Source of the DNA: Gammaproteobacteria bacterium
GTDB lineage: Bacteria; Pseudomonadota; Gammaproteobacteria; Pseudomonadales; Azotimanducaceae
Assembly (NCBI GenBank): GCA_026706385.1
Contig: JAPOYV010000114.1
Location: 124,001 to 188,000 of the forward strand
Length of the DNA: 64,000 nt
Direction: 5' to 3'
Below the pieces are notes generated by a model. The model searched no databases. It was not told the DNA's origin and saw nothing but the letters and a program-made list of their open reading frames with translations. The position numbers were made by a program, and so were the translations under genes. Below are positions 4,566-64,000 of the stretch, one piece after another. Positions within the stretch are counted from its first letter, which is position 1. Every line of letters starts with the position of its first letter.

Positions 4566-4643
4566 TGGCAGCCCCGGTAGGATTCGAACCTACAACCTTT
4601 GCCTGCGACAGCACTGCTCTTTCCAAGATTGAGCTACGGGGCC
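4566..4643 (-). tRNA. tRNA-like gene with encoded CCA and defective anticodon arm
   Basis: The minus strand gives a 7-bp acceptor stem (GGCCCCG with CGGGGCT, one G-U), U8, a perfect 4-bp D stem GCTC/GAGC with GG in its loop, a perfect 5-bp T arm with TTCGAAT, a G discriminator and an encoded CCA. The anticodon arm does not form a normal 5-bp stem with a 7-base loop: the best folds give a 6- or 8-base loop. At the standard offset from U33 the triplet would be CGC. The good acceptor, D and T arms with a poor anticodon arm suggest an indel in that arm or a decayed or mobile-element tRNA. Confidence 0.55.
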
Positions 4644-4911: not shown

Positions 4912-7569
4912 ATGTCTATCAGCCATGCGAAGCAATCGCTCTTCCCACGCATCGCAACGATGCTCGTTCCCGTGCTGCTGGCCGTACCCACGGCCGCTCA
5001 AGGCACCGAGGAACCCGCCACGCGCATCACCGAGGAGATTATCGTCACCGCCGAACGGCGCGAGGAGAACGTGCTCAAGGTACCGATGAGCATGACCGTC
5101 CTGAACGCCACCAAGATCGACGAACTCGGGATCCAGAATGCCATGGACTTAGAGCAGCTCGTGCCGGGATTGCAGTTCGGCGATCCCACCGAGGGGCTTG
5201 GCCACGGCACCACCATGCGCGGCATGGGAACGGCCCGCGGCGGGGACAAGGCCGGCGTCGACATATCGCGCGACGAAGCGGTCGCAACCTATGTCGATGG
5301 TGTATTCACCTTCGCCGAATACGGTCTGGACGCGCACCTGTTCGACCTCGAACGCGTTGAAGTGCTGCGTGGGCCCCAGGGGACGATGTTCGGCCGCAAC
5401 GCCATTGGCGGCGCTATCAACTATTACACCAAGAAACCCACCGACGAGTGGGATGCGCTGGTCATCGCGGAGGTCACCGATCAAATGACGCAGAGGGTGA
5501 ACGTCGCCTTCGGGGGCCCCCTATCGGATCACTTTAGCTTCCGCATCACCGGCGGCTACTACGCGGGCGACGGCGCGCAGGAAAACATCGGCTTTGGCGG
5601 CGACTACGACGAGCCCGATCAACGCAGTATCTCGCCGCAGCTCAGGTTCAAGACCGATCGCCTGGACATCAACCTCCGTTATGGCTACGTGGAGGACACT
5701 GGTGCACCGCGCACCCCGATCTCCATTTCGGATCGCGTTCGCGACGTCGAGTGCGCCGAATTCCCCGGGCTGACCTATTCCGCCCTGATCGATGGGTGCC
5801 ATCCCAACAACTGGTACCTGTATGAAGGCTCCGTGCCGTCGATCGACCCCAACTGTCCGCCGAACGTGGTGGGGTTTAAGTGCGGCAGGTTGAAGAACAT
5901 TACCAATGTCAACGCGCCGGGCATTCAGGACAGCCACCGCGAAACGGTGATCGCCTATGCCATGTTCGATCTCACGGAGACCTTGACGCTGCGCTACAAC
6001 TTCGGTTTGGCGGATATTCTTCAAAGCAGCAGTCGCGACAACGACAATACGAACAGAGTCAGTAGTGCGCAGGATGTTTCCCTGGCGAGCGACGGCCTGG
6101 TGCCGTTCATAAACGATCGACAGGAGAACTTTTTTCCGTATGAGGAGACCTCACACGAGTTGCAGCTCTTGTCGAACTTCGACGGCCCGTTCAATTTCGT
6201 AAGCGGCGTCTTTTACTACGACGTCGAAAACGCGTGGGACATGGAGATCGACAGTTTCAGCACGACTTTCCGCTTTCTCAACGCCGACGAGGCGGCCCAG
6301 GCCGCGGGCTTCGACGGGTGCCAGGCGATGCTCGAGCTCTTCGGGTTGGGGATAGAGTCGAGACTACCAGATCTGTATTTCACTTGTCCGCCGGGCAGCG
6401 ATCACACCCATGCGTTTGAACTCCTATCGCGTCATACGTCGGAGACCTTTGCGGCGTTCTTCAGCGCTGATTACCGAATCGATGAGCGGTGGCTCGTGTC
6501 GGGCGGGCTGCGTTATTCCAAGGACACAAAAGACAGGCCCGGCTTCGATGGATCGACCACCATCGGCATCGCCGGTGTACCCGTGCTAGTCCATTTCGAC
6601 ATCTCCAACTTGTTCGGCCATTTGCAGCCCGGTGAAACCGTCAGCTGGGACAAGACCATCGGTCATGTCGGTATCGAGTACACGCCGGTTGAGAATAGGC
6701 TGTTCTATGGCCGCCTCTCCACCGGCTACCGCGCCGGCTCGTTCAACTACGACGAAGGATCGCCGAACACACCACCGGTACCCACCGATCCCGTCGAAGA
6801 AGAGACCAACATAAACTACGAACTGGGTGTCAAGGGGATATTCGCCGACGATCGGTTGCGGTTAACGGCGGCCGTGTACTACAGCGACATCGAGAACTAC
6901 CAGATTCTCTTGACGCAGGAGGTGCCACCTGGCTTCTTGCAGCCCCACCACATCTCTCCCAACACCGAGTACACGGCCAACGTCGACGGGACGAGCCTCT
7001 CGGGCTTTGAGCTCAGCGCCGAGTATCGGCTCAGCGAGCAGTGGCGCGTGGACGGTTACTACAACTTCCAGGACTCCAGTCTCGGCCCGCATTCGGCCGC
7101 CATCCGCGGCAATCCGGACAACGATTTCCTGATTCACGAATACGTGACCCTTGCCGGTGAGCCCATGTCTCGCCCCTATCCGGCGCCGGAGGATGTGACC
7201 GGCAATCGGCTGCCCATGCAGCCGACGCACAAGGCGGCCCTGACGCTCGTGCACGAGCGAGCCCTCGCCGCCGGGGGCCGGTTGCAGTTGCTCTCGACCT
7301 TGAGCTATACCGGTTCGCGCTATCCCGACATCGGCAACCTCGATTTCTACAAGATGCCGGCGTATGAACGCTGGGACGTCCGCGCGAGGTGGACCTCGGC
7401 GAACGATGCCTGGTCGGTGACCGCGTACATGCAGAACCTGACCGATGAAATCGGCCTCGTGCAGTTCGTCCCCGTGTCCTACCACGAAGGCCGCGAATCG
7501 CAGACGATGGGCACGCTCACCGACCCGCGGCGGATCGGGCTGCAGGTCCGCTGGCGGCCGCGATTCTGA
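4912..7569 (+). CDS. TonB-dependent outer-membrane receptor
   Basis: This 885-residue protein has a signal peptide ending at about residue 30, a TonB box (E-E-I-I-V-T-A-E-R-R, residues 41-50), an N-terminal plug domain with V-E-V-L-R-G-P-Q-G-T-M-F-G-R-N-A-I-G-G, and a long beta-barrel ending in the C-terminal Phe expected for outer-membrane proteins. It should take up a large or scarce ligand with energy from TonB-ExbBD. Cys pairs in extracellular-loop-like segments suggest disulfides. The start at 4912 has a GGGAGG site about ten bases upstream. Substrate is unknown. The next gene encodes a periplasmic binding protein of oligopeptide type, so a peptide-like ligand is conceivable. Confidence 0.9.
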   Translation: MSISHAKQSLFPRIATMLVPVLLAVPTAAQGTEEPATRITEEIIVTAERREENVLKVPMSMTVLNATKIDELGIQNAMDLEQLVPGLQFGDPTEGLGHGTTMRGMGTARGGDKAGVDISRDEAVATYVDGVFTFAEYGLDAHLFDLERVEVLRGPQGTMFGRNAIGGAINYYTKKPTDEWDALVIAEVTDQMTQRVNVAFGGPLSDHFSFRITGGYYAGDGAQENIGFGGDYDEPDQRSISPQLRFKTDRLDINLRYGYVEDTGAPRTPISISDRVRDVECAEFPGLTYSALIDGCHPNNWYLYEGSVPSIDPNCPPNVVGFKCGRLKNITNVNAPGIQDSHRETVIAYAMFDLTETLTLRYNFGLADILQSSSRDNDNTNRVSSAQDVSLASDGLVPFINDRQENFFPYEETSHELQLLSNFDGPFNFVSGVFYYDVENAWDMEIDSFSTTFRFLNADEAAQAAGFDGCQAMLELFGLGIESRLPDLYFTCPPGSDHTHAFELLSRHTSETFAAFFSADYRIDERWLVSGGLRYSKDTKDRPGFDGSTTIGIAGVPVLVHFDISNLFGHLQPGETVSWDKTIGHVGIEYTPVENRLFYGRLSTGYRAGSFNYDEGSPNTPPVPTDPVEEETNINYELGVKGIFADDRLRLTAAVYYSDIENYQILLTQEVPPGFLQPHHISPNTEYTANVDGTSLSGFELSAEYRLSEQWRVDGYYNFQDSSLGPHSAAIRGNPDNDFLIHEYVTLAGEPMSRPYPAPEDVTGNRLPMQPTHKAALTLVHERALAAGGRLQLLSTLSYTGSRYPDIGNLDFYKMPAYERWDVRARWTSANDAWSVTAYMQNLTDEIGLVQFVPVSYHEGRESQTMGTLTDPRRIGLQVRWRPRF

Positions 7570-7652: not shown

Positions 7653-9437
7653 TTGCTCGGTCCGGCGAGTCACGCCGATCCAGCGCCGCTCGAGTTCCAG
7701 CACGGCGTGTCGATTCTTCACGAATTGAAATATCCCCCCGACTTTCGCCACTTCGCGTTCGTCAACCCCGACGCGCCGAAGGGCGGCACGCTGGTCATGC
7801 CCTCCATGACCGACTTCAACACGCTCTCGCCGCTGTTGACTTTCGAGCGCGCGCCGGGATTGAACTGGGTCTACGAGACCTTGCTACTGCGCGCAGGCGA
7901 TGAGCCTGCGGCGTACTATGGCCGACTGGCCGAGGAGATCGCGCTCGGCGCCGATCGCCGGTCGATTGTCTTTCGCCTGCACCCCGGAGCGCGTTGGCAC
8001 GATGGGCTGCCAATCACATCGAGCGACGTCAAGTTCACCTTCGACGCCATGAAGGCCGACGTCGCCAGTTCGACCATTCGTATGGCCTCGCCGTGGTTCG
8101 AGTCGGTCGACATCGTCAACGACCGGGAGTTCGTGATTCGAATGATCGCGGATCCCAGCCTGAGCCTCACACCGCTCGCCGACTACATTCCCATAATGCC
8201 CGCGCACTACTGGGCGGACAAGGATCCCACCATCGCGACCCTCACGCCACCCCTCGGCAGCGGTCCGTACCGGATCACGGCGGTCGAGAAAGGGCGTTTC
8301 GTTCGCTACGAACGCGTAGCTGACTATTGGGGCCGCGACCTTGCCGTCAATGCCGGCAGGTTCAACTTCGAAACGATTGTCTACGACGTCTACCGGGACG
8401 CGACGGTGGCGCGTGAAGCACTGCGCAAGGGGCTGCTCGACGTGTGGTTGCAGTGGGGGAACGAGACCTTGGCCTTCGACATCCCGGCTCGTGACAAGGG
8501 TTGGTTGGTGCAGGGTAAGCGGCGTTACCGGGTCACGATCGGCGCGCGTTTCTGGCTGATCCTGAACAACCGCCGCCATCCCTTTGACGATGCCAAGGTC
8601 CGGGAAGCCCTGAGCTTGGCGTTTGATTTCGAGTGGCAGAATCGTGCGCTATTCGCCGGTCGACTGACCCGCGCCGACAGTTATTTTCAGAACTCGGTGT
8701 TTGCCGCCACGGGCTTGCCGAGCGAGTCGGAGCTCAAGCTCCTCGAGCCCTTTCGCGATCTGATACCCGCGCGAGTGTTCACCGAGGCCTTTCGATTTCC
8801 GCGCACCTCCGGCACCGGTGGCAATCGAGCGGGCCTGTCTCGGGCGCGTGCGCTCCTGGCAGAGGCTGGATGGCAGATGCGCGACGGCGTCCTTGTCAGC
8901 TCGGCGGGCGAGCCCCTGGAGATCGAGTTCCTGTCGAGCACGTTGGCGGATCAACGCAGGCTATTGCCGTACGTCGACGCATTGACCGTGCTCGGCATCG
9001 AGAGTCGGATCAGAGTGGTCGACCGCGTTCAGTACATCAGTCGACTGAGAGACCGCGACTACGATGCCATCATCAGGATCGGCGACTTCGGGTTGCCGCC
9101 GTGGGAGCTGCATCTGTCGTTTCATTCCGGAGCGGTCGATGCGCCGCTTTCGTTCAACCATGCGGGGATCAGTCATCCGGCAGTCGACGCGCTGGTCGAT
9201 GCGGCAAAGGCGGCACCAACACTGGATTCGATGGTCGCCGCGTGTCGGGCCCTCGACCGCGTATTGCTTTGGAGTTTCTATCAGATTCCGTTGGACGCCG
9301 TGGACGACCAGCGCCTCGTCTATTGGGACAAGTTCGGCCGGCCAGAGCGGGAAGCCGAAGCGACATACATGTCGCCCTTTCCAGATGGCTGGTGGTACGA
9401 CGAAGCCAAAGCGGCTCGCATAGATATGGCTCGTTGA
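7653..9437 (+). CDS. ABC transporter extracellular solute-binding protein, family 5 (YejA-like)
   Basis: The 594-residue frame has the lobe organisation of peptide/nickel-type binding proteins. It includes P-K-G-G-T-L near the start, the family signature region around R-W-H-D-G-L-P-I-T-S-S-D-V-K-F-T-F-D, and the F-D-W/F-E-W-type hinge segment typical of the YejA microcin C/oligopeptide branch. It would bind peptides or similar solutes in the periplasm for an ABC importer, but no permease or ATPase gene adjoins it. The only conventional start is TTG at 7653. The frame stays open upstream and encodes a hydrophobic, signal-like L-A-T-L-L-L-L-G-P-A-S-H-A, so the true start is probably earlier, at a non-standard codon, or an indel hides it. 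Confidence 0.85.
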   Translation: MLGPASHADPAPLEFQHGVSILHELKYPPDFRHFAFVNPDAPKGGTLVMPSMTDFNTLSPLLTFERAPGLNWVYETLLLRAGDEPAAYYGRLAEEIALGADRRSIVFRLHPGARWHDGLPITSSDVKFTFDAMKADVASSTIRMASPWFESVDIVNDREFVIRMIADPSLSLTPLADYIPIMPAHYWADKDPTIATLTPPLGSGPYRITAVEKGRFVRYERVADYWGRDLAVNAGRFNFETIVYDVYRDATVAREALRKGLLDVWLQWGNETLAFDIPARDKGWLVQGKRRYRVTIGARFWLILNNRRHPFDDAKVREALSLAFDFEWQNRALFAGRLTRADSYFQNSVFAATGLPSESELKLLEPFRDLIPARVFTEAFRFPRTSGTGGNRAGLSRARALLAEAGWQMRDGVLVSSAGEPLEIEFLSSTLADQRRLLPYVDALTVLGIESRIRVVDRVQYISRLRDRDYDAIIRIGDFGLPPWELHLSFHSGAVDAPLSFNHAGISHPAVDALVDAAKAAPTLDSMVAACRALDRVLLWSFYQIPLDAVDDQRLVYWDKFGRPEREAEATYMSPFPDGWWYDEAKAARIDMAR

Positions 9438-9450
9438 ACGCATGAGGGCA

Positions 9451-9480
9451 TTGCATCCGTAGATGCACATGCTGTATATA
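9451..9480 (+). promoter_or_regulatory. Probable promoter with overlapping hairpins before the nuclease-helicase operon
   Basis: TTGCAT (9451-9456) and TATATA (9475-9480) are 18 bases apart. Two inverted repeats overlap the same DNA: TGCATC/GATGCA (9452-9467) and GCACATG/CATGTGC (9465-9491). The second covers the GTG start at 9488. Transcription from this promoter would begin near 9487, making the first codon essentially leaderless or leaving the in-frame TTG at 9512 as start. Functional inference only. Confidence 0.4.
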
Positions 9481-9487
9481 CATCCAT

Positions 9488-11170
9488 GTGCGAATAGGCT
9501 CCCCAGAAGAGTTGCCAAGCGAAGATCATCATACGCCGATCGCCCATCTTGAGCCCGGCAAGGCGCCGCCCGAGCACTACTATGCGGAGAATCTGCTCAC
9601 TGTGGTGCGCACCGTGTTGCAGCGCTACGGCGACCTGCTGGACTCCGCCGAACGCTGCTTTGGCGCGACGATCCTGGCGTTGCCTGCTCCGGCGCAGCGC
9701 CTGTACGCCCGGCTAATCGGGCGCCGCGGCCCGCTGATCCGCGAGGATCGGCTGATCTACGCCGAGGTCGGCGATCTCCAAGCCGCCTTGCGCTGCCTGG
9801 CTGACGCGGGATTGGTCGAGTGCTGTCCCGAGGCGCCGGCGACCGTCTTGTGCGGACTGATGAGGCGCCCCGAACTGGAGTTGCTGTTCGCCCCCGAACT
9901 CGCGCACGCGCCGCGTGGTGGCGGCAAGGCCGAACGCGTGGCGTGGTTGGCGGCGCGGACTCCGGTCGCTTTTCTGCGCTGGCGGTTGCGGCGGGCGTTC
10001 ACCTGGCTCGCCGTGGCGTCGTTGGAACACTTGGACCTGTACCGGCTGCTCTTCTTCGGTGACCGCCGACAGGATCTGACCACGTTCGTGATGCGGGACC
10101 TCGGCGTCCACCGCTATGAGCCGATCGAACTCTGCCGCGAGACCCGGCTGTTTACCGACCGATCCAGCCTGACTCGATACCTGGATCTGACCGCCATGCA
10201 CGACGAAGTCGCGGCGCTTGGCAAGCGTCCCGACATCGATACCTGCACTGAGCACGTGCGGGATCTCGTCGCACGCCTCGGCGATCCGATCGGCAATCGA
10301 ACCCTGGAGCGCCGCCGCAGCCGTGTCCTGAATCAGCTCGGGCGCAACCTGGAACGCGTCGGTGCCGATGAGTGGGCGTTGCGCTGCTTCGGGCTCTCGA
10401 CGCTGGCGCCGGCACGCGAGCGGCGCATGCGCATCCTGCACCGGCGCGGCGATCGCGGGGGTGTCGAGCGATTGCGCCGCGAGGTGCTCTCCGATCCCGA
10501 GACGACCCTGGAGGCTGACTTCGCCGCCCGGTTTGGTCATCGAGGCCGGCGCCCGGCGGTGCCCACGACCGAGGTCGAACTCGATACGGTTCCCGCCATG
10601 CCGATCGAGCAGTACGCGGCCAGCCTGTGTACCGCCTCCGGCGGCACCGCCTGGCACCTTGAAAACGACCTGCCGATGGCAATGTTCGCCTTGGCGTACT
10701 GGTCCTGGATGTTCGCACCTGTCGAGGGCGCGTTCCTGCACCCGTTCCAGGTCGGCCCGCAGGACCTCTTCTGGCCCGATTTCTTTGCCGCGCGGACGAG
10801 CATGTGCCGGGATCCGCTTACCCGGCCAATCAAGGCGAAGCTGAGGCGCGCGGCCCGCGCCAAGGTCGGAACGGCAAACCGGTTGTTCAGTTGGCACCGC
10901 TGTCCACTCGACGTCGTCGAAACAGTCCTCGACGCCATGCCCGAAGCGGACTTGCGCACCTTGCTTGCGATCGTCCGCGACGACCTCGCCGGCAAGCGCA
11001 GCGGCTTCCCGGACCTCACCGTCGTCTACGGGCCCGGCCGCTACGAGTTCGTCGAGGTCAAGGGGCCGACCGATCAACTGCAGGCGCATCAGCACCTATG
11101 GATCCAGGCACTCCGCGCGGGCGGTCTGCCCGTGCGCGTCATGCGCTTCCGGCTCAAGCACGCGCCGTGA
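9488..11170 (+). CDS. VRR-NUC domain nuclease (FAN1-like)
   Basis: This protein of about 560 residues has a C-terminal VRR-NUC PD-(D/E)XK nuclease domain: F-P-D at 507-509, E-V-K at 523-525, then Q-L-x-A-H-Q with H-L-W. The long helical N-terminal part resembles FAN1 homologues, which cut branched DNA and help unhook interstrand crosslinks. Its stop overlaps the start of the next gene (GTGA), a nuclease-helicase fusion, so the two are probably translationally coupled and act together on DNA. The start is uncertain: GTG at 9488 overlaps hairpins, and TTG at 9512 is in frame. No signal or membrane segments. Confidence 0.85.
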   Translation: MRIGSPEELPSEDHHTPIAHLEPGKAPPEHYYAENLLTVVRTVLQRYGDLLDSAERCFGATILALPAPAQRLYARLIGRRGPLIREDRLIYAEVGDLQAALRCLADAGLVECCPEAPATVLCGLMRRPELELLFAPELAHAPRGGGKAERVAWLAARTPVAFLRWRLRRAFTWLAVASLEHLDLYRLLFFGDRRQDLTTFVMRDLGVHRYEPIELCRETRLFTDRSSLTRYLDLTAMHDEVAALGKRPDIDTCTEHVRDLVARLGDPIGNRTLERRRSRVLNQLGRNLERVGADEWALRCFGLSTLAPARERRMRILHRRGDRGGVERLRREVLSDPETTLEADFAARFGHRGRRPAVPTTEVELDTVPAMPIEQYAASLCTASGGTAWHLENDLPMAMFALAYWSWMFAPVEGAFLHPFQVGPQDLFWPDFFAARTSMCRDPLTRPIKAKLRRAARAKVGTANRLFSWHRCPLDVVETVLDAMPEADLRTLLAIVRDDLAGKRSGFPDLTVVYGPGRYEFVEVKGPTDQLQAHQHLWIQALRAGGLPVRVMRFRLKHAP

Positions 11171-51382: not shown

Positions 51383-52093
51383 CTACCGCGTCGGGAAGGC
51401 AATCGTCCCCGCCATTCCCGGTTCGCGGTACGCCGTGTTGGCGGCCTGCCACGCATCGCTCGCCAGCATGGACCGCAGAGCGTCGAGCGACGGATAGCGC
51501 ACCAGGACGAAGTGCTCCCACTCATCGTCGCTGACCATCGCCTGGTCCGCGACCAGCGACATCTCGACTTTGCCGCCGAGATCATGAACGAGCCGTGCGG
51601 CGACCTCGCCGTAACGGAAGAACGACGCTCTTCCTTCGTCGCCGTGGTAGCGCAGCAGGTTGACCACGAAGACTTCCTCGTCGGACGTTCGCTGCACGTC
51701 CTCGAGCGACGGCGGGGTCACCGGCACCGGGCCGGTGCCGTGCGCGAAGGCGTAGAGCAGACGCGCGGACAGGCCCGCGGTGCGGTCTGAGATGGCGGCC
51801 TGGTAGGCGGGGTTGTCCTGCATATCGAGCCAGGCCGCCCGGCGGGGGTAGTAGACGAGTGCCACGCCGTCCCAGTCGTCCCCGGCCAGGCTGGCGCCGC
51901 TGTAGAGCACACGCCCGCCACGGGCGCTGATCTCGCGGCCGGCAACGGCACCGTAACGGGCGTAGCGTTCACGACCGCCGGGTTCGGCGTACTTGAGCAG
52001 ATTCACCATGACGATCGGGTCGTCATCGGGGCGGGCGCGAAGCGCCGCGATGCTCTCGTCGCTGGGGTTCACGGCGCTCGTGGGGTTCGTCAT
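51383..52093 (-). CDS. Tandem DUF1330-like (dimeric ferredoxin-fold) protein
   Basis: The 236-residue protein has two similar halves (about 25-115 and 135-230), each with I-V-M-V-N-L-L-K-Y or V-F-V-V-N-L-L-R-Y at the start and a Y-P-R/Y-P-S strand near the end, as in DUF1330 stress-response/ferredoxin-like proteins. A fusion of two units would let it fold like one dimer. Activity unknown. It is divergent from the nucleoside permease-like gene. Confidence 0.78.
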   Translation of the reverse strand: MTNPTSAVNPSDESIAALRARPDDDPIVMVNLLKYAEPGGRERYARYGAVAGREISARGGRVLYSGASLAGDDWDGVALVYYPRRAAWLDMQDNPAYQAAISDRTAGLSARLLYAFAHGTGPVPVTPPSLEDVQRTSDEEVFVVNLLRYHGDEGRASFFRYGEVAARLVHDLGGKVEMSLVADQAMVSDDEWEHFVLVRYPSLDALRSMLASDAWQAANTAYREPGMAGTIAFPTR

Positions 52094-54112: not shown

Positions 54113-55702
54113 ATGAGCGACGACTTCAAGAATATCCGCAGGAGGCTCCGGCTCGCTGTCGTCGGAATGGCGCTGGGCATGTTCCTGGCGGTCCTGAGCC
54201 AGACCGTCGTTGCCACGGCGATGCCCGCGATCATCGTCGACCTCGGCGGATTCGGCCGTTACGCCTGGGTCGCCACGGCCTACCTGGTCGCGGCCACCGT
54301 GACCATGCCCATCGCGGGCCGCATCGCCGACATCTACGGCTTCAAGCGTGTGCTTCTCGCGGGCATCGTCCTATTCACCATCGCGTCGATCCCGGCCGGT
54401 TTGGCGCAGACGTTGAACGAACTGGTGGCCTATCGAGCGCTCCAGGGAATCGGCGGCGGGATCGTCATGATCGGCAGCCTCGTCGGCATGGCCCAGTTGT
54501 TCCCACCCCAACGGCGCGCCCGCTACCAGGCGCTGGTGGCCGGGGTCTACGCGCTGGCCTCGGTGCTGGGCCCCGCTTTGGGCGGGTTCATCACGGATGG
54601 AATCGGGTGGAGTTGGGTGTTTCTGATGAACGCGCCGCTTGGCGTGATCGTCTTGCTGGTCGTGGGTCGGACCCTTCCGAATCTCAAGGCGAGTGCCGAT
54701 GTCAGCAAGCTGGACTACACGGGAATGGTGTTGCTGGTGCTCGCCGTGACACCGCTGATGTTCGCCCTGTCGTCCGGTGGCGTCCTATTCGACTGGCTCT
54801 CTTGGCAGATTGTCGCCTGCCTAGCCTTCGGCGTAGTCATGACGGCGGCTCTGATCACTTTGGAGATGCGCACGGAGAGTCCGATCTTGACCGTGGACAT
54901 CTACCGCGTCCGAGGGGTTCCGGTCTCGTTGGCGGCGTCGGTCCTGACCGGATTCGGGTTCTACGCGGCGCTGTTGTTCGTGCCCCTGTGGCTGTTCTCC
55001 GGGAGCGGCATGTCCGCCAGTGCAGCCGGGAGCCACTTGACCCCGATGCTGCTTGGTATGGTGGTCGGTGCGGTGGTCATAGGCCGTCGCCTCTCGCAGG
55101 ACAAGGGAACCCACCGGAGGTCGGCCTTGACGAGTACGGGCGTCGCATTCGTCGCGCTGTTCCTGATGTCCACCACCCTAAACGAGGGCGCGAGCATCCT
55201 CGCGACCGACGGGGCCATCGTCGTGCTTGGGCTCGGACTCGGCGGCATGTTGGCGACTTTCGGTTCGGCGGTGCAGGGCGCCGTACCCGAGAACATGCTG
55301 GGTGCCGCGACCTCTTCGTTGTCGTTCTACCGGTCGGTGGGCGGCATGGTGGGCGTCGCCGCAGCAGGCGCCGTGCTGACCAATCGACTGCGCGACGGTC
55401 TTTCGGACGCGTTGTCCTCCGATACGTCATCGACCGGTGCTTACCAGCAGTTGCCACCGGATTGGTTGGGCAGCGTCCAGTTGGATCCGCGATCGCTATC
55501 GGATGGCCAGTCGTCCGAGGCGGTCGTCGCCGAGTTGGAGCGATCAGGCCTCGATCAGCAAGTCGCCGAAGCGTTGGCCGAGGCGTTTCCGTCCGCCCTC
55601 ACGGGTGCCATCGGGGAGGTCTTCCTCGTCACCGCGGCGGTCGTGGTGCTCGCGTTCGGGCTGTCGCTTTTCCTGCGTTCGGGGAACGAAGAGGCCGGGT
55701 AG
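54113..55702 (+). CDS. MFS drug transporter, DHA2 (14-helix) type
   Basis: This protein of about 529 residues has 13-14 predicted membrane helices. The first helices carry A-T-A-M-P-A-I and the loop G-R-I-A-D-I-Y-G-F-K-R, with the G-x-x-x-G-P-A-L-G-G motif C in helix 5, typical of proton-driven multidrug efflux. The start is uncertain: ATG at 54113 begins the protein-like sequence; a start at 54053 would add 20 residues. Ninety-six bases separate it from the selenoprotein gene. Substrate unknown. Confidence 0.88.
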   Translation: MSDDFKNIRRRLRLAVVGMALGMFLAVLSQTVVATAMPAIIVDLGGFGRYAWVATAYLVAATVTMPIAGRIADIYGFKRVLLAGIVLFTIASIPAGLAQTLNELVAYRALQGIGGGIVMIGSLVGMAQLFPPQRRARYQALVAGVYALASVLGPALGGFITDGIGWSWVFLMNAPLGVIVLLVVGRTLPNLKASADVSKLDYTGMVLLVLAVTPLMFALSSGGVLFDWLSWQIVACLAFGVVMTAALITLEMRTESPILTVDIYRVRGVPVSLAASVLTGFGFYAALLFVPLWLFSGSGMSASAAGSHLTPMLLGMVVGAVVIGRRLSQDKGTHRRSALTSTGVAFVALFLMSTTLNEGASILATDGAIVVLGLGLGGMLATFGSAVQGAVPENMLGAATSSLSFYRSVGGMVGVAAAGAVLTNRLRDGLSDALSSDTSSTGAYQQLPPDWLGSVQLDPRSLSDGQSSEAVVAELERSGLDQQVAEALAEAFPSALTGAIGEVFLVTAAVVVLAFGLSLFLRSGNEEAG

Positions 55703-55798
55703 CACGCGGGCAGCCGGATCCCGCGCCAGCTTGACTTCCCGCGCGCGACAAATCGAAATTGACGCTTCACCCGGTCGCTTGCCGCACGAGGAGATCTG

Positions 55799-56956
55799 AT
55801 GCCCGACAACGACCAGGCGATGCGGACCCACGTCGCGACGCTGCCCGTGCCCGAGTTCGCCGAGACCGCCTTCACCGAGCCGAGGGCGCTGCGGGACGCG
55901 CGGGTGGCGATCGTCACCAGTGCGGCCCTGTACCGCGAGGGCGACCCGCCGTTCGCGGTGCCGGATGTGCACTTCGAGACCATCCCGGACAGTGCGCGCG
56001 ACCTGAAGCTCGGGCACGTGAGCCCGAACTTCGACCGCGCCGGCTTCGCGGCGGACCTGAACGTCGTCTACCCGGTCGATCGGCTGCACGAACTCGCGGA
56101 TCGCGGAGCCATCGGGAGCGTCGCCGACTTCCACTACTCGTTCGCCGGCAACCAGTCGGACACGGTTTCCGAGGTCCGCCTCGACACCGGTCCAGCTTGC
56201 GCGCAAAAACTGCGCGAGGACGGGGTGGACGTTGTTCTGCTCACACCCGTCTGACCCCTTTGTCCGCGTACGGTCTGTACGCTGGCGCACGTCTTCGAAG
56301 CTGCAGGGCTCGCTACCGTCGCAATCGTGCCGATCCGAACGGTCGCGGAGCGCATGCACCCGCCGCGGGCCCTCTACGTCGAGTTCCCGCTCGGACTGCC
56401 GCTCGGAAAACCGGGGGACGCCGACTTCCAGCACCGCGTCCTCGGCGCGGCCTTCGCGCTCCTCGGGGAACCGGCGGGTCCGGTGCTCGCGGACTTCCCG
56501 GAAGCGATCAAGTCCGAGGACACCGAACCGCTCCAGTGTTCCGTGCCGCCCCGCTACGACCCGGAGTTGCATCCCGCCGTCGACGAGGCGCAGGGACTGC
56601 GCTCCGCGCACGACCGCGCGGTGGCCAGAAACGGACGCACCACGGTGGGTTCGCATGTGAGTCGCGACGACATCCCGGACGCGATCGGCAAGTTCGCCAG
56701 GATCGCCGCGGGCGAACCGTGGGACGCGGTGGGTCTCGACGGCTCGGCCGGCCGGGTCGGGCAAGAGATCAGGACGTACTACGAGGAACTCGCCTGCGAA
56801 CTCGCGGACGGCCCCGCCGGGCCGTGGGCCGTAGAACGGTGGTTCTACGAGCGGACGCAGACGGGCAAGGTGCTGCTCGAGGCGCGCCGCAGGATGCGCG
56901 ATGCGGGCGCTCCGCAACTGGCGTGGTTCCTGCTGGCACCGGCGTCGCGAGAGTAG
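55799..56956 (+). CDS. Selenoprotein of the PrdB/GrdB reductase family (Sec at UGA 56252-56254)
   Basis: Reading UGA at 56252 as selenocysteine joins two in-frame ORFs into a 385-residue protein. Before it lies a domain like PrdB (D-proline reductase) and GrdB (glycine, sarcosine or betaine reductase): S-x-x-x-D-R-x-G-F-A-A-D-L-N-V-V-Y-P-V-D-R-L-H-E-L, then D-V-V-L-L-T. The active site is U152-P-L-C155, the U-x-x-C of this family. The family domain continues to about residue 230; the C-terminal tail is extra. The start at 55799 has GAGGAG five to six bases upstream. A SECIS hairpin follows the UGA, and tRNA-Sec and selB lie 6 kb away. No other reductase subunits are nearby. Redox role inferred; substrate unknown. 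Confidence 0.85.
56252..56285 (+). promoter_or_regulatory. Bacterial SECIS element with the UGA codon
   Basis: Stem GCGTAC (56266-56271) pairs perfectly with GTACGC (56277-56282) around loop GGTCT (56272-56276), with two more C-G pairs below a bulged T (56264-56265 with 56284-56285). The loop begins 17 nt after the UGA. As I recall, E. coli fdhF has the same GGUCU loop at about 18 nt, and its G and U are read by SelB. The hairpin lies inside the coding frame, as expected for bacteria. Confidence 0.85.
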
Positions 56957-60622: not shown

Positions 60623-60651
60623 GGTTGTAGAGAGCAGATGGCTTGAGCGAT

Positions 60652-61203
60652 ATGGCAGAGTCGCCAGAAACGATGTTGGGCTTCCTCGTGAAGAGACCGC
60701 CGAAGCTGTCGAGCAGCGCCCGGGAGTTTGTCCGCGCACATCCCGATGAGGCGCGCGTCGCGGTAGCAGTGGCTCTGGAAACGGCCGCGGTACAATCTAG
60801 GGCGGAGCCGACGAGATCAACGGGCGATGTGCCTGCCCGGCTCCGGCGGTTCGTGGTGGATCGGACCGGCGAGGGTCTGATTGGCGCTACGGAGGCAGCG
60901 TCACGACTAGGTGTGTCCCGTACGACCGTTTACGACTGGGCAGCTAGGAACACGTTGATCGCCTGGCGGGCCACGAAACGCGGACTGAACATCCCGGCAG
61001 GTCAGATCGTCGGGCCCGGTCGGGTCGCTGGCGGATTGGCAGAAGTCGTGGACGTTGTTGGGGAGCCAGAGCTTGCCTGGACTTTCCTCAGTCAGGAATG
61101 GCCCTTTGCGGACGGCGTGGCCCGGCCTATCGAGCGCTTGCAGTCCGGTAGGCTCGACGAGGTTCTATCGGCGGCAGCAGGATTCGGCGCGACCTTTACG
61201 TGA
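60652..61203 (+). CDS. Xre/MbcA-type antitoxin of a RES toxin pair
   Basis: This 183-residue protein has a DNA-binding helix-turn-helix (about 76-100, A-T-E-A-A-S-R-L-G-V-S-R-T-T-V-Y-D-W-A) and a C-terminal MbcA/ParS/Xre toxin-binding domain (about 130-183, with E-L-A-W-T-F-L-S-Q-E-W and P-I-E-R-L-Q-S-G-R). It neutralises the RES toxin encoded next and represses the operon. It overlaps the toxin start as GTGA. Third-position GC is lower than in the flanking core genes, which fits transfer. Confidence 0.85.
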   Translation: MAESPETMLGFLVKRPPKLSSSAREFVRAHPDEARVAVAVALETAAVQSRAEPTRSTGDVPARLRRFVVDRTGEGLIGATEAASRLGVSRTTVYDWAARNTLIAWRATKRGLNIPAGQIVGPGRVAGGLAEVVDVVGEPELAWTFLSQEWPFADGVARPIERLQSGRLDEVLSAAAGFGATFT

Positions 61204-61792
61204 CCGACAACCGCTACCCGCGGAGCCTGATCGAGCCGCTGCTAGTCAGGACAGCGTTTCCGGAAAGCTACCGGATCATGCCGCGGCCACATGTCGGATC
61301 GCCTTTGGGAACAACCCCCGCAGATTCCCGTTTCGCAACCCGGACCGGGAGTTATGCGGTCCTGTATTCAGCGGCCACCTTCACCACGGCGTTCATCGAG
61401 ACAATCGTCAGGGATCGGTTCGTGCATCGCCGAACGCGGAAGGTCGCGTTTCGCGAGATCACGGAACGGGGGTGGGTCCGCGTATCGGTGAAACCAGGCA
61501 CGGGGCTGATGCTTCTCGACCTTCGCGCAGATGGCTGCACGCGCATCGGGGCGCCGACGGACGTCGTTCAGGCGAGGAATCATGCAGCCGGGCGCGCCTT
61601 GGCAAGGCTATCCATGCTGCACATGAGGATGTCGACGGATTGGTCTACTCGTCCCGCCTGATGGGTGAAGATGTTTACGCGATCTATGATCGAAGTGTCG
61701 TAAAACTGGAAGCGGGCGACGTTGGGCAACTGGAGGAGCACGTGGAGCTACCGGATATTCTGGAGCACCACGGGATAGGACTCCTGCTTTAG
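61200..61792 (+). pseudogene. RES-domain toxin gene with a single-base frame break
   Basis: RES toxins destroy NAD+. From GTG 61200 the domain reads normally through S-Y-A-V-L-Y-S-A and A-F-I-E-T-I-V-R-D-R, but the frame ends at 61661. The expected RES end (A-A-H-E-D-V-D-G-L-V-Y-S-S-R) lies in another frame and runs to 61792. One base missing near 61605-61611 explains it. The cell would carry a dead toxin with an intact antitoxin, or the base was lost in sequencing or assembly. Joined length would be about 197 residues, longer than the usual 150-160 for RES. Confidence 0.75.
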
Positions 61793-62044: not shown

Positions 62045-62138
62045 TGGCGGAAGAGGTAGGAGTCGAACCCACCGGGCACCTATCGAGCGCCCCGACGGCT
62101 TTGAAGGCCGCGCGCCCCACCGGAGACGATGCTCTTCC
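62045..62138 (-). tRNA. selC: tRNA-Sec (anticodon UCA)
   Basis: The 94-base gene has a GGAAGAG/CTCTTCC acceptor, an anticodon arm CGGC-CTTCAAA-GCCG with TCA, a long variable arm, a long T stem with TTCGACT and an encoded GCCA. It differs from the canonical bacterial Sec tRNA only in small ways: the eighth acceptor pair is C-C. It reads UGA as selenocysteine when charged by SerRS and SelA and delivered by SelB. The gene starts 26 bases after selB on the same strand, so the two may be co-transcribed. Confidence 0.93.
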
Positions 62139-62164: not shown

Positions 62165-64000
62165 TCAGGCGGCGACTGCCGATGGCGTCCCGACTACCGT
62201 TCGCGTATCGCCTTGGCGCCGCGTGAAGCCCTTGGCGTCGAAGTGTTCGAGCACTTCGATGACGACGTTCCGGCCGACGCCGGTGGCATCGCGGAACTGG
62301 CGGACGGTGAACGGGCCGGCGCTGTCGAGGTTGATCGCGGTGTCGGCCAGTTCGAGGAGGCGGCCAGGCAGGTAGTAGCGCGTTGGGCTGATGCGGACGG
62401 CGAGTCCGAACGCAGGCAGGGCGCGCATGTCTTGTTCGAAAGGCGTGAATGGGCGTTTCAGGCGCTTGGCCAGGTCGCCCAGGCTTGGAGGTTGTATTGA
62501 GTCGAGCATCTGTTCGACGCTGCCGAACAGGCGGCTGACGTCGTCGGGCAGAGTCGCGCGATGGGCGGCGTCGGCGTACAGGCCGTTGCCGACTCTTACC
62601 GATCCTCTCTCAACTAATTCGGCGAGGACCAGCCGGCGTGCGGGGTCGCGGCCGGTGAGGGCTTCGAGCGTCATGCCTTCGCTGTCGGGATGTGCTTGGT
62701 GATGGTCGGACAGCGCGGTCTCGACGTGCTGCCGGGCTGTCGCGATCAGCGCGGGTGCCAGCCAGTGGCCGTCGATCTGCTCAAGACCTCCTTGGCCGCG
62801 CGCGAGGGCATCCACACTAGCGACCTTTGCGTTCCAGTCTCGGGCGAAGGCGTTGCCTTCGATGGGTTCCAGTGCCGCCTGGTGGGCCAACGAACCGGTC
62901 GGGTCACTAGGGTCGAGACCGCTTAGCAAGGCACGTCGCACGTCGCCACGTCGCCGTGTCCGCGGCACGCCGAGGTCGACGACGCGTCCGCCTCCCAACG
63001 TGCGTTCGAGGTCCTGGTCCCGGAGGACAACGCGGTCACCCACCTTGACGTGAAGCGGCGTATCGCAGAGCACGTCAACGAGTGCCTCGGCGCCAGGGGC
63101 CACCCGCGCGCTGTCGAGCAGAAGCAAGCGGCCGTGGGCATGACTCGTGGCGTGGTAGACGTGAACCGCCGCGTTGTGTCGGACCGGGCGCGGGAAGTCG
63201 TCGATGACGCTCAAACGCGCGGCGAAGCCGGTCTGTGGGTCGCGGACGTCCGGATCGAGCAGCCAGTCGCCGCGCCCGACTTCGTCGACGGCGACGCCGG
63301 CGAGGTTGATCGCGGCGCGATCGCCCGCTGTGGCACGGCTGGCCGACTCGTCCTGGACGTGCAAGCCGCGGACACGCGCTGCCGCGCCGGTCGAGGCGAG
63401 CACTAACCGGTCGCTGACGGCGGCGGTGCCCGCGGTCACGGTGCCGGTTACGACCACGCCGCTGCCGCGGATGGTGAAGGCGCGGTCGATCGCCAGGCGG
63501 AAGGGTGCATCCTGCTCGCGGTCGGGTGTTTGGGCGGCTGCGTCGGCGAGGTGCGTGCGTAGACCGTCGAAGCCGGTTCTGGTTTCGCAGGACAGTTCAA
63601 TGATCGGCGCGTCTTCGAGGAACGAGCCGGAGCCCAAGTCTCGGACCTGCCGCCGCACTTCGGACACCCGATCGCCGTCGACTCTGTCAATCTTGTTCAA
63701 GGCCACCAGGCCGCGCTGCAAGCCCAGCAGCCGAAGGATCTGCAAATGCTCACGGGACTGCGGCATTACGCCGTCGTCCGCCGCGACGACGAGGAGTGCG
63801 AACTGTCGCCCGGCCACGCCCGCGACCATGTTGTGGATGAACCGGTGGTGTCCCGGCACATCCACGAAGCCGACGCGCTGGCCGTGGATGTCGGTGTAGG
63901 CGAAGCCGAGGTCGATGGTCAGCCCGCGGCGCTTTTCTTCCGCTAGGCGATCGGTGTCCACGCCGGTCAGCGTGCGTACGATGGACGTCTTGCCGTGGTC
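62165..64000 (-). CDS. selB: Selenocysteine-specific elongation factor SelB, 5' end beyond window
   Basis: The visible 611 residues start with D-H-G-K-T-S (G1 P-loop) at the window edge, so roughly the first ten residues are missing. G2-G4 follow: [22 protein letters not shown]. Domains II and III and the C-terminal winged-helix repeats that bind SECIS RNA follow. SelB carries Sec-tRNA to the ribosome. It precedes selC by 26 bases. selA and selD are not in the window. Confidence 0.95.

Follow-up and report, generated by a model that had tools for sequence, protein, structure and literature searches.

PrdB and GrdB act together with a pyruvoyl-type subunit (PrdA and GrdE, respectively), and their chemistry is known from anaerobic amino-acid fermenters that possess these partner subunits. 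GrdB, GrdF and GrdH are the protein B components of the glycine, sarcosine and betaine reductases (PF07355, TIGR01918), and the UxxC motif of GrdB is described in the accessible part of a recent review (PMC13188914). A GrdB-type fluoroacetate reductase, in which the selenocysteine (Sec) is proposed to attack the C-F bond, has a GrdE-type partner according to the text available (PMC10838667), whereas none was found for the protein described here.

Sec-containing UxxC proteins named PrdB have been known from ocean metagenomes since 2005, and this kind of protein is therefore not new. As given in the accessible sections of the two surveys, they ranked third in abundance among the known families of the Sargasso Sea, with 42 Sec genes and one Cys gene (PMC1088965), and counted 235 Sec and 110 Cys genes in the GOS data (PMC2398784). 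The same sections take a role as D-proline reductase for granted and do not distinguish a long form. Likewise, a review from 2026 (PMC13188914) and one from 2022 (PMC9312934) file the family under D-proline reductase in the parts available. The ocean proteins share the UxxC motif, pfam07355, a marine setting and the existence of Cys counterparts with the protein described here and, judged from their descriptions, probably belong to the same broad group (PMC1088965, PMC2398784). Among the papers on PrdB/GrdB selenoproteins listed in a search that mostly excluded subscription papers, no title or abstract described a long, partnerless form. In this study, we describe such a form from a gammaproteobacterium of the Azotimanducaceae.

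Results

Gene structure and Sec machinery

The gene lies in a window of 64,000 nucleotides, the whole stretch of DNA that was analysed (contig JAPOYV010000114.1, positions 124,001 to 188,000); the features of the locus are listed in Table 1. The original prediction had taken two ORFs, 55799-56254 and 56327-56956, for the halves of one gene. Coordinates and frame were confirmed, as both ORFs lie in the same frame on the two sides of one TGA, and a translation check yielded a single frame that runs from the ATG at 55799 to a TAG at 56954-56956 with this TGA (codon 152) as its sole interruption. The apparent start of the second ORF at 56327 is merely the first GTG past the TGA; coding resumes at the very next codon, and the translated junction reads TPV-U-PLC-PRT (V-U-P-L-C-P). 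The opposite strand also holds an ORF of 457 amino acids (55544-56917). Therefore, a long open frame alone is weak evidence at this locus and the case rests on homology.

Table 1. Features of the selenoprotein locus (positions in the window unless another contig is given).
Feature	Position	Strand	Basis
Probable ribosome-binding site GAGGAG	55788..55793	+	Sequence upstream of the ATG; putative function
Long-form PrdB-related selenoprotein gene, 385 codons plus stop, one internal UGA	55799..56956	+	Frame, homology
UGA codon 152, selenocysteine by comparison	56252..56254	+	TGA in 79/80, TGT in 1/80 relatives
Cys155, UxxC partner of Sec152	56261..56263	+	Invariant in 40 aligned rows
Bacterial SECIS-type hairpin, six-pair stem GCGUAC/GUACGC, loop GGUCU	56266..56282	+	Covariation, pairing counts
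PrdB/GrdB-related alpha/beta core, about residues 1-236	55799..56506	+	TIGR04483 match 25-218; AlphaFold2 model
C-terminal helical domain, about residues 259-385, no known family	56573..56953	+	Model; no Pfam or PDB sequence match
Selenocysteine tRNA gene	62049..62138	-	Rfam RF01852, 68.8 bits; ARAGORN
selB, Sec-specific elongation factor; continues past the window end	62165..64000	-	TIGR00475 5.1e-112
selA, adjoining selB just outside the window	contig C84, about 188024-189391		TIGR00474 4e-161

The genes for tRNA-Sec, SelB and SelA start 5 kb downstream of the gene and selD is present on another contig, so that the genome holds all four components of the Sec machinery (SelA, SelB, SelD and tRNA-Sec). 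SelB was found above its cut-off in 45 of the 50 carrier genomes searched. Four of the five others hold partial SelB-like matches, which in our reading look cut by contig ends. The fifth, G462, carries the Cys form and has neither SelA nor a good COX1 match; its SelB-family matches are weaker than those that the EF-Tu of any genome should give, and its COX1 match is a fragment. This assembly is probably incomplete, and co-loss of the Sec machinery with the appearance of Cys is therefore not firm in G462. The genome of locus L080 (G465) contains two selA-selB pairs, on C10 and C59, which reflect either a real duplication or a mixed bin.

Conservation of the in-frame UGA codon

A four-sequence alignment, used as query against 84,980 species genomes, matched 435 stretches; 252 of these were relatives, and the best 80 were kept. 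These 80 show 52-94% identity to the window protein, the closest being L087 (94%). By their record titles they belong to Gammaproteobacteria, Binatia, Myxococcota and Deltaproteobacteria, to Chloroflexi and to Actinomycetota, here mostly Acidimicrobiia, and one is an Acidobacteria MAG. Codon 152 is TGA in all of them except one, a Porticoccaceae MAG (L077), where TGT encodes Cys. Thus, among the best 80 of the 252 relatives, the in-frame UGA is kept and is replaced by Cys only, as expected of a bacterial selenoprotein. A Cys at residue 152 in homologues had been named beforehand as a test of the Sec assignment; it occurs once in the long forms, in L077, and as CxxC in some of the short forms, which lack the C-terminal domain.

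A second survey covered 58 genomes from that of the window outwards, its own included, and 37 of these contained a match to the protein. The genomes without a match were mostly of other families (20 of the 21 are from the same order, one from the same family). Among the 100 matches in the 58 genomes, 98 hold one TGA, in one case together with a TAG, and the remaining two are C-terminal pieces that end short of the codon-152 site. In all 34 loci that were fetched and in which the site was checked directly, the TGA lies in the motif. The genome of the window itself carries five Sec copies, this gene included, with one TGA each. The closest copy (G009:C375, L010 and L087; 93-94%) is interrupted near residues 227-236, at a locus that contains a short stretch of N; an assembly gap, rather than loss of the gene, is the probable cause.

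Purifying selection is equally strong on the two sides of the TGA, with dN/dS of 0.12-0.29 before and 0.12-0.28 after it among seven relatives, a set that includes two near-duplicate pairs and in which dS is saturated for L065 and L066.

The SECIS-type hairpin

A six-pair hairpin begins 11 nt past the UGA. It has the form of a stem-loop that closely follows the UGA and bears a G in its small apical loop; such a loop is described as a feature of the bacterial element in the accessible part of the Sargasso Sea survey (PMC1088965). In 26 sequences that were hand-chosen for diversity, 98.7% of the cells are paired vs 69.3% in shuffles, and 46 cells are double changes vs 14.8, in both cases with none of the 500 shuffles, which ignore relatedness, as high. 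The best slid control reached 48.7% paired. Further pair types were not above the shuffles in these sequences (11 vs 10.1; 201/500 as high). The loop G22 is invariant in the 26 aligned rows, and L071, L072, L074 and L102, from outside these rows, have G at 24 instead.

All six pairs are formed in 98 of 101 distinct Sec sequences and five in the other three, while none of the 13 distinct Cys sequences forms six (four pairs in eight, three in four and five in one). L158, with codon TGA, was counted as Sec, and the 48-mer of L080, which holds an N, was kept outside the distinct counts. The Cys set, intended to comprise 18 loci, was used without L159, L160, L161 and L165 and is not independent, as a single bacterial family supplied 10 of the 14 sequences. 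When the window gene was recoded synonymously, six pairs arose in 0.9% of 2000 draws. The test was applied to 12 Sec and 15 listed Cys rows, and for pairing it gave values <0.05 in 10 of these Sec sequences. Folding energy does not separate Sec from Cys genes (p 0.10 for the window, <0.05 in 2/12 Sec sequences); 5/14 Cys sequences were also <0.05, but with another fold. The comparison shows that the predicted hairpin is conserved among the Sec genes but not among the Cys genes examined.

Taken together, codon conservation, the covarying hairpin, the like dN/dS on both sides and the nearby Sec machinery make it very nearly certain, as judged from sequence comparison, that UGA152 encodes selenocysteine. 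The original prediction that the split ORFs are one selenoprotein gene is thereby strongly supported.

Relationship to PrdB and GrdB

The profile search of the joined protein against the PrdB and GrdB families, which had been suggested as a check, gave matches below the family cut-offs. The best match is TIGR04483 (PrdB; 2.1e-32, residues 25-218), and joining the halves raised its score from 79.7 to 112.5 bits, still short of the curated cut-off of 300. GrdB-type families gave 40-54 bits vs cut-offs of 65-800, among them the Grd protein B subfamily TIGR01918 with 49.5 bits vs 65.45. In contrast to GrdB, GrdF and GrdH, with which the window protein shares the UxxC motif and this weaker homology, no GrdE-type partner was found for it and its match to Pfam GRDB (PF07355; 35.3 bits, 1.1e-8) is confined to the part before the Sec, although it lies above the gathering cut-off of 22.

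The long-form alignment comprises 40 rows, namely 39 of the best-80 loci and the window. All 40 match PF07355 at E <= 0.01 and the same five NCBI families. UxxC is invariant in these rows, with a true Cys at 152 in one, and 57 columns are invariant, only four of them within the motif, which suggests a specific substrate pocket. The Sec stands in the register of the PrdB Sec, in the sequence UPLC here and UGTC in the three annotated PrdB genes that were fetched (Enterococcus, Ligilactobacillus and Peptoclostridium). In an unrooted tree of the shared core, calculated without GrdB rows and with these three PrdB rows, 18 long rows form one clade (100/96) that is distinct from PrdB (100/100), from the short forms encoded in the same genomes and from those of other taxa, most of which carry Cys. 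Nearest to the long forms stand the PrdB rows, with a support of 94/89 that is below the starred level. Thus, the window protein shares with PrdB a homologous core and the position of Sec, and differs from it in the score far below the cut-off, the separate clade, a C-terminal domain of about 127 residues and a genome in which no gene of the PrdA/GrdE type was found.

The AlphaFold2 model (pLDDT 91.5, pTM 0.90) contains only helices in the C-terminal domain. This part alone has no Pfam match, and PDB sequence searches found no relative of the protein or of the domain. Foldseek against the PDB with the whole model gave nothing at E <= 0.001 (best 5.2e-3, TM-scores 0.21-0.26).

These data show that the core is related to PrdB/GrdB. 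Placement in the PrdB/GrdB superfamily, as proposed in the original prediction, is thus upheld; filing of the protein as PrdB or GrdB itself is not, with scores below the cut-offs and the partner missing.

Proteins from Roseomonas and Haematobacter, annotated on plasmids as 'glycine/sarcosine/betaine reductase selenoprotein B family protein', share the homologous core and carry Cys at the Sec position (CPVC, CPIC). Unlike the window protein they are short, lack the C-terminal domain and form three of six pairs in the hairpin columns. Matches were obtained in 24 plasmid records; since none of them spans more than 80% of the protein, no long form is among them. In the short relatives L025, L026 and L028 the motif is UPLD in place of UPxC, with Sec kept, Asp for the resolving Cys and a hairpin in the same columns; therefore, the resolving Cys is not needed across the whole superfamily. 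L178 holds, at 6001-6714, a copy annotated prdB from a Peptoclostridium acidaminophilum plasmid, and the incomplete gene table of this 12.6-kb stretch contains no prdA.

Genomic context

PF09338, the PrdA/GrdE type, had no match in any of 38 genomes, the window's own included and many of them draft assemblies, while a control record with an annotated prdA was detected. TIGR04480 (PrdA) likewise gave no match in the own genome, in a search in which no positive control was detected. The eight neighbouring proteins scanned comprise a carboxylesterase, a DUF1330 protein, a nucleoside permease family protein, a GDPD family phosphodiesterase, two MFS transporters, a GNAT acetyltransferase and an amidase; none is another reductase subunit, PrdC, PrdD or proline racemase. 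The claim that the gene has no other reductase subunits nearby therefore stands for these neighbours and, as regards PF09338, genome-wide.

Among the largest neighbour clusters listed for the window and the 80 loci, obtained with rough ORF picking, no close neighbour family recurs beyond small groups; the most matches within 2.5 kb were five, in Chloroflexi loci of like layout. In the loci of the own genome and family, neighbours are shared mainly between close species. PF07355 was found in 6 of 299 genomes of the wider phylum and the short Cys form or its relatives in 16 of 398, each count including the own genome, and PrdB-related genes are thus uncommon in the wider phylum.

Several further observations concern these loci. 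A CoA-transferase lies directly after the short form in 4 of 10 loci, L170, L171, L177 (Cys) and L175 (Sec), and belongs to family III by Pfam in both loci scanned, L171 and L175. A protein with two DUF1330 stretches is encoded at 51383-52093 (- strand) of the window, and a protein that is similar by eye adjoins the gene in L097, L099 and L107. In L039 an ORF at 8489-9565 (- strand), with like ORFs in L047, L049, L050, L045 and L048 of the same genus, continues beyond the 3' end of the C112-type paralogue, in a different frame; it may represent a gene lying downstream or simply result from the overlap. A weakly matched helix-turn-helix protein and a RES-domain protein, encoded with an overlap at 60643-61203 and 61200-61661 (+ strand) of the window, resemble an Xre-RES toxin-antitoxin pair. 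Rfam tRNA matches at 2869-2963 and 4569-4643 (- strand), for which ARAGORN gives odd anticodon loops ('???'), are perhaps diverged or degenerate tRNA genes.

The original prediction also spoke of a possible aerobic selenoenzyme. The genome of the window contains two matches to PF00115, the COX1 family (442 and 213 bits), which would agree with this setting; the family also includes nitric oxide reductases. PF00115 was above its cut-off in 24 of the 25 carriers searched, the exception being G462. In the accessible part of one survey, Sec users are about as often aerobic (40.4%) as anaerobic (35.8%), and an aerobic selenoprotein is therefore not surprising in itself (PMC5029168).

Discussion

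In our view, the gene probably encodes one selenoprotein of 385 residues, a Sec152/Cys155 selenol-thiol reductase that would work alone. By analogy with its relatives, stand-alone, thiol-dependent reductive chemistry appears somewhat likely. In the manner suggested for GrdB-type selenoproteins, the Sec152 selenolate would attack a small electrophilic substrate at a polarised carbon (or sulfur), Cys155 would resolve the adduct as a selenenyl-sulfide, and thioredoxin or another thiol donor would re-reduce this bond. The C-terminal helical domain may replace the work of the partner subunit or may shape the pocket.

Other explanations have to be weighed against this one. A genuine stop at the UGA, or an error of sequencing, either of which would leave a truncated protein and a dead fragment, agrees with table 11, in which UGA is read as a stop, and with the upstream half matching PrdB and GRDB without the remainder (39.5 bits to Pfam GRDB alone vs 35.3 joined). 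Against this stand the same TGA in 79 of the best 80 of 252 relatives, drawn from many assemblies, undiminished purifying selection past the codon, the covarying hairpin and the proximity of selB, selA and the tRNA-Sec gene. A stop or pseudogene is thus extremely improbable, and was rejected on codon conservation, hairpin covariation and dN/dS. Nearly as improbable is a PrdB subunit of D-proline reductase, which converts D-proline to 5-aminovalerate. The best profile match, the shared Sec register, the three adjoining PrdB rows in the unrooted tree and the name PrdB given to such proteins in the accessible parts of the ocean surveys (PMC1088965, PMC2398784) would all fit this assignment, but the score is little more than a third of the curated cut-off and PF09338 is missing from all 38 genomes, many of them drafts, in a search whose control responded. 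The separate clades, the extra C-terminal domain and the eight scanned neighbours without prdC, prdD or proline racemase also speak against it, and the missing TIGR04480 match, for which no control was detected, adds little. This role was rejected because the cut-off and partner tests failed.

The motif itself would suit a general thiol-disulfide or peroxide reductase with a thioredoxin- or peroxiredoxin-like role, since UxxC is common among ocean selenoproteins in the accessible Table 2 of PMC2398784. Matches to such families are at noise level (PDO_seleno_TRX at E 0.29; ScsC_N in 1/40 rows at 0.005), no recognised thioredoxin fold is among the 50 Foldseek matches listed, and 53 of the invariant columns lie outside the motif. 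With family and fold support both missing this role was rejected, and we regard it as unlikely. Still less likely is a catabolic enzyme acting on acyl-CoA-type substrates, the Sec making or breaking a C-S or C-X bond. The CoA-transferase after related short forms points in this direction, but it is not a rule beside the long form, and three of the four loci come from one genus.

The selenol-thiol reductase reading therefore remains the best explanation. It is tempting to speculate further on a selenoreductase that consists of one chain, tolerates oxygen, has given up the pyruvoyl-type partner of the proline/glycine reductase systems, has gained a C-terminal domain of its own and has spread through oxidase-bearing aquatic bacteria of several phyla, where it would carry out a reductive bond cleavage not yet described; this wider picture is tentative, and we hold it to be possible rather than probable. 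Standard gene reading splits this gene and its relatives into two pieces. The five Sec copies in the genome, the Cys variants and the UxxD variants make the function directly testable. The partnerless Sec form occurs in Gammaproteobacteria, Actinomycetota, Chloroflexota and others and, because the bacteria that retain it carry COX1-family oxidases, the name 'proline reductase' may be wrong for an abundant class of ocean selenoproteins.
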